Origin: an uncultured Lachnospiraceae bacterium
GTDB lineage: Bacteria; Bacillota; Clostridia; Lachnospirales; Lachnospiraceae
Assembly: GCA_947384285.1 (NCBI GenBank)
Contig: CANDGI010000025.1
Location: forward strand, 1-42,698
Length of the DNA stretch: 42,698 nt
Direction: 5' to 3'
A program made the position numbers and the translations under genes. Shown here one piece after another: positions 3,220 to 3,405 of the stretch. The notes under the pieces are model-generated. The model made no database searches, was not told the origin of the DNA, and saw nothing but the letters and a program-made list of their open reading frames with translations. Position 1 is the stretch's first letter; every line of letters begins with the position of its first letter.

Positions 3220-3247
3220 TTGCAAAGAGATGCAGAAAGCGTATAAT
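3220..3247 (+). promoter_or_regulatory. strong sigma-A-type promoter
   Basis: TTGCAA at 3220-3225 and a perfect TATAAT at 3242-3247 are separated by 16 bp. The expected start point (about 3254) falls at the beginning of the GCAA tract. Confidence 0.65.
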
Positions 3248-3250
3248 TTA

Positions 3251-3304
3251 GCAAGCAAGCAAGCAAGCAAGCAAGCAAGCAAGCAAGCAAGCAAGCAAGC
3301 AAGC
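3251..3304 (+). repeat. tetranucleotide tract (GCAA), 13.5 copies
   Basis: An uninterrupted run of GCAA units, 54 bp, starting four bases after the -10 box. Tracts of this length are expected to change copy number by slipped-strand mispairing. The unit is not a multiple of three, so any frame read through it would switch. The best-placed ATG (3230) gives a peptide of ASKQ repeats that would run through the terminator stem, so a coding role looks unlikely. Confidence 0.95.
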
Positions 3305-3405
3305 TTGTGTGACTGCGTCTTTTTTACCCTATTATTTTTTAAATACAGAAATGGCAAAGCCGGTTCAGAGACATGGATATTCCCATGTCTCTGAGCCGGC
3401 TTTTT
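3254..3405 (+). ncRNA. candidate small RNA with GCAA-repeat 5' half
   Basis: A consensus-like promoter (3220-3247) and a strong intrinsic terminator (3356-3405) delimit a transcript of about 150 nt with no convincing reading frame or ribosome binding site. Its 5' third is the GCAA tract, followed by a U-rich unstructured segment (about 3318-3345) and the terminator hairpin. This architecture is that of a trans-acting small RNA. No known RNA family is recognised. Promoter and terminator are direct observations. The RNA itself is inference. Confidence 0.45.
3356..3405 (+). terminator. strong intrinsic terminator
   Basis: A roughly 20-bp stem (AAAGCCGGTTCAGAGACATGG paired with its near-exact complement, GGTT opposite a shorter GAGC side) with a short AT loop, followed by TTTTT at 3401-3405. 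Confidence 0.85.

Follow-up and report, generated by a model that had tools for sequence, protein, structure and literature searches.

Features of the GCAA locus

The analysed stretch of DNA (the window) comprises 42,698 nucleotides of contig CANDGI010000025.1 from an uncultured Lachnospiraceae bacterium (GCA_947384285.1). Its forward strand carries a GCAA tandem repeat with promoter-like elements upstream and a hairpin downstream, followed by a gene remnant and a gene for a secreted protein, as listed below.

3134 to 3162, + strand: P1, the proposed leader promoter, TGGACG-17-TAAAAT
3210 to 3219, + strand: ribosome-binding-like stretch GGAAAAGGGG, located 5′ of the ATG at 3230 (anti-SD duplex energy)
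3220 to 3247, + strand: P2, inner promoter-like element TTGCAA-16-TATAAT, ending 2 nt 5′ of the tract (promoter scan)
3230 to 3394, + strand: leader ORF, ATG to TGA, 54 codons (ORF listing)
3250 to 3304, + strand: AGCA/GCAA tract (tandem-repeat listing)
3310 to 3312, + strand: TGA closing the early-stop (OFF) frame, 5 nt past the tract
3357 to 3405, + strand: intrinsic terminator, 20-bp stem and T run (folding)
3438 to 3440, + strand: TGA closing the third frame, beyond the terminator
3474 to 3742, + strand: remnant of a LuxR/MalT-like regulator gene (residues 443-533 of 812; tblastn with the L334 regulator)
3842 to 7192, + strand: secreted pullulanase-like gene, the first intact co-directional gene after the leader (ORF, start assigned by eye; CBM48 and alpha-amylase domains)

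The tract is uninterrupted with a 100% match, as described in the initial annotation of this DNA, and has 13.75 units rather than the 13.5 given there; this number comes from a draft assembly (83% complete, 74 contigs) and may be off. Every exact (GCAA)4 match of the 3.23 Mb draft genome falls in this tract, and of the 397 family genomes searched, 8, among them the source genome, have at least eight uninterrupted GCAA units. The tract is probably hypermutable, in agreement with the initial annotation.

P2 lies where it had been annotated and matches the consensus at 10/12 positions in the promoter scan. Taken alone, the box is proof of nothing, because the 2 kb scanned contained 2 promoter-like sites against 2.7 expected from shuffles. 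P1, which has a weak consensus (9/12), aligns and is conserved in three genomes, those of the window, of L073 (G432, another genus) and of L042 (G023, the same genus), and is the putative start of the leader mRNA.

The strong terminator ending at 3405 was confirmed by folding of 3350-3410 (minimum free energy −41.4 kcal/mol, z −8.98), which places the arms at 3357-3376 and 3383-3402 and the T run at 3401-3405; unlike folding, a simple terminator scan listed no terminator at 3357-3405. In the alignment of the window with L073, read by hand together with the folds, the stem pairs have changed on both sides in three cases and on one side in four, with zero broken pairs, and on this comparison the terminator is judged to be retained through compensatory changes. 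The tract RNA of the window folds no better than shuffles (z 0.06). Rfam at gathering scores generated no match in the window, and the plasmid and phage collections had no DNA similarity to window positions 3000-3800.

The initial annotation saw no credible reading frame here; the ATG at 3230 opens 54 codons that run through the tract to the TGA at 3392-3394, which as assembled brings the frame into the 3′ arm of the terminator. The predicted peptide begins with MQKAYNL and continues with SKQA repeats. The duplex of the upstream stretch with the anti-SD sequence was −8.0 kcal/mol against −6.6 kcal/mol for shuffled sequence, and over 41 loci the energy was −6.71 against −4.93 shuffled, being lower in 32 of the 41. 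The SD-like signal is moderate, and the G-run before the ATG may in part be a promoter feature, because AAAGGGG-TTGACA also precedes a tRNA gene pair in locus L346. Relative to the tract end, the three frames of the window stop at +5, +87 and +133, with the stem at +53 to +97; they end at 3312, 3394 and 3440, one just past the tract and two entering or crossing the terminator.

GCAA tracts in other genomes

A (GCAA)8 scan with one genome per species returned at least 115 stretches, and all listed stretches were classified by script, using a terminator rule of our own (fold below −9 kcal/mol and a T run). Among these 115 stretches listed, 42 were of leader type (no frame open ≥300 nt past the tract, and a terminator-like hairpin within 150 nt), 27 were coding fusions with such a frame, 25 ended within 150 nt downstream, and 21 fitted neither class. 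Titles were known for 80 of the 115; the 29 title-named leader-type loci among the matches listed carried 16 Bacillota names, 2 plain 'bacterium' names and 11 names from other phyla.

For the promoter-like box, 180 distinct tract sites of at least four units were pooled from all sources, and 163 of them had at least 45 nt upstream. TTGACA (at least 5/6) with 16-18 nt and xAnnnT abutted the tract in 73/163 sites, against 1-10 of 154 at nine upstream offsets used as control, so that the association of box and tract claimed for the window recurs elsewhere; the −35 box of the window, TTGCAA, matches TTGACA at 4/6 positions, and the 73 do not include the window. Among the unselected matches listed, 20 of 33 leader-type loci with enough upstream sequence had the abutting box. 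P2-like boxes recur in leaders and also before tracts inside coding genes, and L074 has no P2 and keeps the remainder of the module. Of 45 related loci, 27 have an extended −10 (TGNTAnAAT-like) at 22-59 nt 5′ of the −35 box, with fewer than 10% of shuffles as good; L073 is not among the 27. This 45-locus set was obtained from the 73 promoter-bearing sites by removing 17 coding or viral and 11 proteobacterial sites by hand, and three of its members are non-Bacillota by title (L159, L162 and L165).

Some of the related loci are homologues of each other. L150 and L175, from two genomes, share 159 of 160 upstream bases and differ in unit number (9.25 and 15.0) and in the genes downstream; from this pair, the leader seems to be a cassette copied between genes.

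An Accumulibacter MAG (G480; L304-L313, L176 and L196) carries GCAA tracts behind TTGACA boxes at no fewer than 12 places. In 9 of the 10 loci fetched (L304-L313) the tract leads into a long frame, with one or two early-stop frames. The start codon, by eye, lies about 50 nt upstream of the tract, and P2 therefore lies inside the gene. These tracts look like a large set of phase-variable genes. L071 (G328) has 9.75 GCAA units and, about 150 nt further on, a 45-nt GCAGA array of 9 units that is preceded by a TTGACA box and an ATG. A search for six units of the GCAGA pentamer in 348 genomes of the phylum gave 1 genome, whose flank (L323) lacks this type of head by eye.

The head pattern without a tract was present in 6 of 291 genomes of the class. 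By eye, L340 and L343 look like leaders that have this head and a terminator but lack the tract, and in L343 a 58-codon leader frame runs through the terminator to a stop that, by eye, shares bases with the next gene's ATG; L338, L339, L341 and L342 carry the head pattern, yet by eye are not leader-like. Scanning of 24 genomes from the earlier searches yielded two new non-tract head matches, L344 and L346, and in L346 AAAGGGG-TTGACA stands before tRNA-Val and tRNA-Asp genes, a warning that this sequence can act as a plain promoter. In ten leader loci, Rfam gave four tRNA matches and nothing else.

Conservation of the start codon and of the stop codons

An ATG open into the tract was found at 41 of 44 loci with P2, the window included, against 9.0 ± 2.5 (maximum 19) for shuffled spacers. 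The set consists of the 45 loci minus the near-identical L175 and L259, plus the window, and the three loci without such an ATG are L151, L159 and L162. Relatives therefore have a conserved frame through the tract, which the initial annotation itself had named as evidence against a small RNA.

The positions of the stops were compared with dinucleotide shuffles of the tract-to-stem stretch in the 42 leader-type loci among the matches listed. A stop at most 12 nt after the tract occurred in 38 of the 42 (shuffle mean 25.4; reached by 0 of 1000 shuffles), a frame that stays open until at most 12 nt before the stem, or further, in 40 (mean 36.5; reached by 48 of 1000), and both together in 36 (20.9 ± 3.0; 0 of 1000 shuffles reach 36). 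The late frame alone is weak evidence, because it is common by chance, and the early stop and the pair are strong. The six loci that miss the pattern are L169, L171, L193, L225, L229 and L237. In a hand-picked, de-duplicated set, both features were present in 31 of 32 loci against 14.4 ± 2.7 in shuffles; of a hand-made list of 41 names, 38 were evaluated and 35 had a terminator (none in L193, L214 and L286), and omission of three near-identical loci gave the 32. Of 27 leaders with a terminator and an assigned ATG, 14 currently have an early stop and 13 a stop that reaches the stem (12 nt margin) or lies past it, which is the mixture to be expected of a switch caught in both states.

A long-range stem between TTGACA (before the ATG) and TGTCAA (after the tract), which are seemingly complementary in about a dozen leaders, was considered and is not claimed. 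For 60 loci the observed pairing total was 800.0, against a mean of 762.8 and a highest value of 800.0 in 60 permutations. In a wider energy test of 31 loci, in which coding, proteobacterial and viral loci and three near-identical leaders were omitted, own pairs were not clearly better than swapped pairs (2655 of 20000 permutations reached the observed sum).

Downstream genes and history of the locus

Of the 42 leader-type loci among the matches listed, 38 have an ORF of ≥100 aa past the terminator; the first such ORF is co-directional in 36 and oppositely oriented in 2 (binomial probability of 36 of 38, 5e-9), and the remaining 4 loci have none or are cut. A simple hydrophobicity rule classed 21 of the 36 co-directional ORFs as signal-peptide-like, compared with 29 of the 114 other ORFs in these loci. 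Pfam was run on 28 of the 36 co-directional proteins, some of them cut at 900 aa, and gave no match for 10 of the 28. The matches included BspA-type LRR (L185, L211, L213, L222 and L229), InlB-type repeats (L159, L193, L209 and L211), Big_2 (L183 and L209), YadA-type (L171), BACON (L218), a MalT-like LuxR regulator (L154) and others. A secreted LRR protein from a rumen Ruminococcaceae MAG (L222:4132-6489) also had a match to the ubiquitin family (PF00240, E 4.7e-20).

The window, L073 and L042 align across P1. The whole module is present in the window and in L073 and absent from L042 between P1 and the regulator gene. From the −10 box of P1 to the start region of the LuxR/MalT-like regulator gene there are 72 nt in L042 and 365 nt in L073. 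On this alignment, the 5′ region of a regulator gene is best read as having gained or lost the module. The homologous tract of L073 has 27 units against 13.75 in the window. The unit looks like a cis-acting leader, because the next gene is on the same strand in 36/38 loci and the module stands between a conserved promoter region and a regulator.

In G023, a 711-aa ORF with a signal-peptide-looking start (by eye) lies 15 nt downstream of the gene for the 812-aa regulator. The relative's regulator has a GerE match and a sub-threshold TPR_MalT match. In the window, the leader module is intact while its first target gene, the regulator, is broken. The leader may now control the pullulanase-like gene at 3842. 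This gene contains 42-bp tandem repeats (6323-6544, 5.3 copies, 97% match) that encode a proline/acid-rich linker.

The ends of a short dispersed repeat lie at 3412-3454 and 42449-42491, the former marking the junction of the regulator remnant. A search with 3300-3800 within the genome gave about two dozen matches to the dispersed repeat, which some relatives in the genus carry too, in L058 as a compact inverted repeat. Next to the leader lie fragments of a serine recombinase gene (669-1840) and of an IS66 transposase gene (2066-2722), and this is regarded as a decaying mobile-element region.

Proposed function and alternatives

We consider it quite likely that the element is a phase-variable, translation-dependent transcription attenuator leader. 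The mRNA from P1 would contain, in this order, the leader ORF starting at ATG 3230 with the GCAA tract, the intrinsic terminator and the regulated gene. Because the unit has four bases, each slip of one repeat would shift the reading frame behind the tract. In the OFF frame, the ribosome translating the leader would halt at 3310, leaving the RNA bare, so that the terminator would form and the downstream gene would be OFF. In the ON frames, it would reach or pass the stem (stops at 3392 and 3438), the hairpin would not form and RNA polymerase would read on. The leader as assembled would be in an ON frame; slippage within a population by one added unit would turn it OFF, and loss of one unit would leave it ON. 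The attenuator model assigns no role to P2, although the box is recurrent. In Bacillus subtilis, transcription outruns translation, which would weaken ribosome-driven antitermination there.

The initial annotation had proposed an independent small RNA, in which P2 starts an untranslated RNA of about 150 nt that has the tract at its 5′ end and acts in trans. The abutting box (73/163), the terminator that follows the tract and the retention of P2 even before tracts within coding genes are in its favour. However, the start codon (41/44) and, among the matches listed, the stop pattern (36/42) and the direction of the next gene (36/38) are conserved, the 5′ region of a regulator gene has gained or lost the module, the tract RNA shows neither a fold better than shuffles (z 0.06) nor an Rfam match in the window, and L074 keeps the remainder of the module without P2. 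We therefore regard a frame-less RNA of this kind as very improbable; termination in the OFF state, and perhaps a start at P2, would nevertheless yield a short RNA, and one of about the predicted size may exist. That the tract instead encodes part of the N-terminus of a long protein whose frame it switches has parallels in 27 of the 115 stretches listed, such as L161, L163 and the Accumulibacter MAG loci (9 of 10 in L304-L313), but all frames of the window end, at 3312, 3394 and 3440, and translational phase variation is scarcely credible here.

Two further views are compatible with parts of the attenuator model or extend it. The leader may have been an attenuator once and be functionless now in the source genome, its regulator being a remnant; this agrees with the attenuator as to the kind of element and concerns only its present function in the source genome. 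Only residues 443-533 of the regulator remain, beside the dispersed repeat end at 3412-3454, whereas the ATG, the uninterrupted tract and the fully paired terminator stem are intact and a co-directional secreted-protein gene follows, and we consider such decay possible and somewhat unlikely. A still more doubtful, though not negligible, proposal sees in the GCAA leader a widespread switch cassette that is copied from gene to gene and carries its own second promoter, with the start point at the first repeats; P2 would be a working part of it. P2 might then make a tract-initiated RNA, hold RNA polymerase so that the ribosome catches up, or raise slippage by keeping the tract melted and transcribed. 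The retention of P2-like boxes in leaders and coding fusions is compatible with this proposal, although L074 lacks one.

Relation to known systems and significance

In Streptococcus gallolyticus, GCAGA repeats in a leader peptide switch pil1, with ribosomes covering a premature terminator, as proven with mutants (Danne et al. 2014, PMC3894217). Leaders with a stop at least 28 nt before the stem give low expression, and those ending next to, in or beyond the stem give high expression (PMC3894217). The window has the same layout, with one stop at least about 28 nt before the stem and the others in or beyond it, a start codon and SD-like stretch before the repeats, a unit indivisible by three and a terminator before the putative regulated gene. 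As far as the available text of that report goes, the GCAA leaders resemble pil1/pil3 in having a short leader ORF with a ribosome site, repeats whose unit length is indivisible by three, and surface genes downstream; in both, a premature terminator is present, and one frame stops early, far ahead of the stem, with the other frames ending in, next to or beyond it. They differ on the same basis in the unit (GCAA here, GCAGA there), in the genes downstream (pilus operons there, mostly other secreted proteins and some regulators here) and in their much wider spread, in Clostridia and, by title, some other phyla; the mechanism is mutant-proven for pil1 and would apply to GCAA leaders by analogy. 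A second promoter-like box abuts the tract here.

The lav gene of Haemophilus influenzae is reportedly a phase-variable gene with a GCAA tract that switches the gene itself. The GCAA leaders are like lav in the unit and the presumed slippage, and unlike it in that the tract lies in a separate leader ORF before a terminator. The pyrBI leader is a translation-dependent attenuator, and so, as described in the available text, is that of E. coli trp (PMC3894217). As in these two, the position of the ribosome on the leader ORF would decide whether the terminator forms; unlike these metabolite-responsive leaders, the state of a GCAA leader would be set by the DNA repeat number. The literature available (titles and abstract openings, mostly outside subscription papers) contained no GCAA leaders like these and none in Clostridia.

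If the attenuator model is correct, a mechanism proven in one streptococcal species would be a common switch for surface proteins and regulators in gut Clostridia, and perhaps in other phyla. Two questions would follow, namely how ribosomes bring about antitermination in Bacillota and why there is a promoter-like box directly next to the repeat. The predicted ON or OFF state would be readable from DNA by the repeat count, and therefore heterogeneity in uncultured commensals would become testable from long reads.
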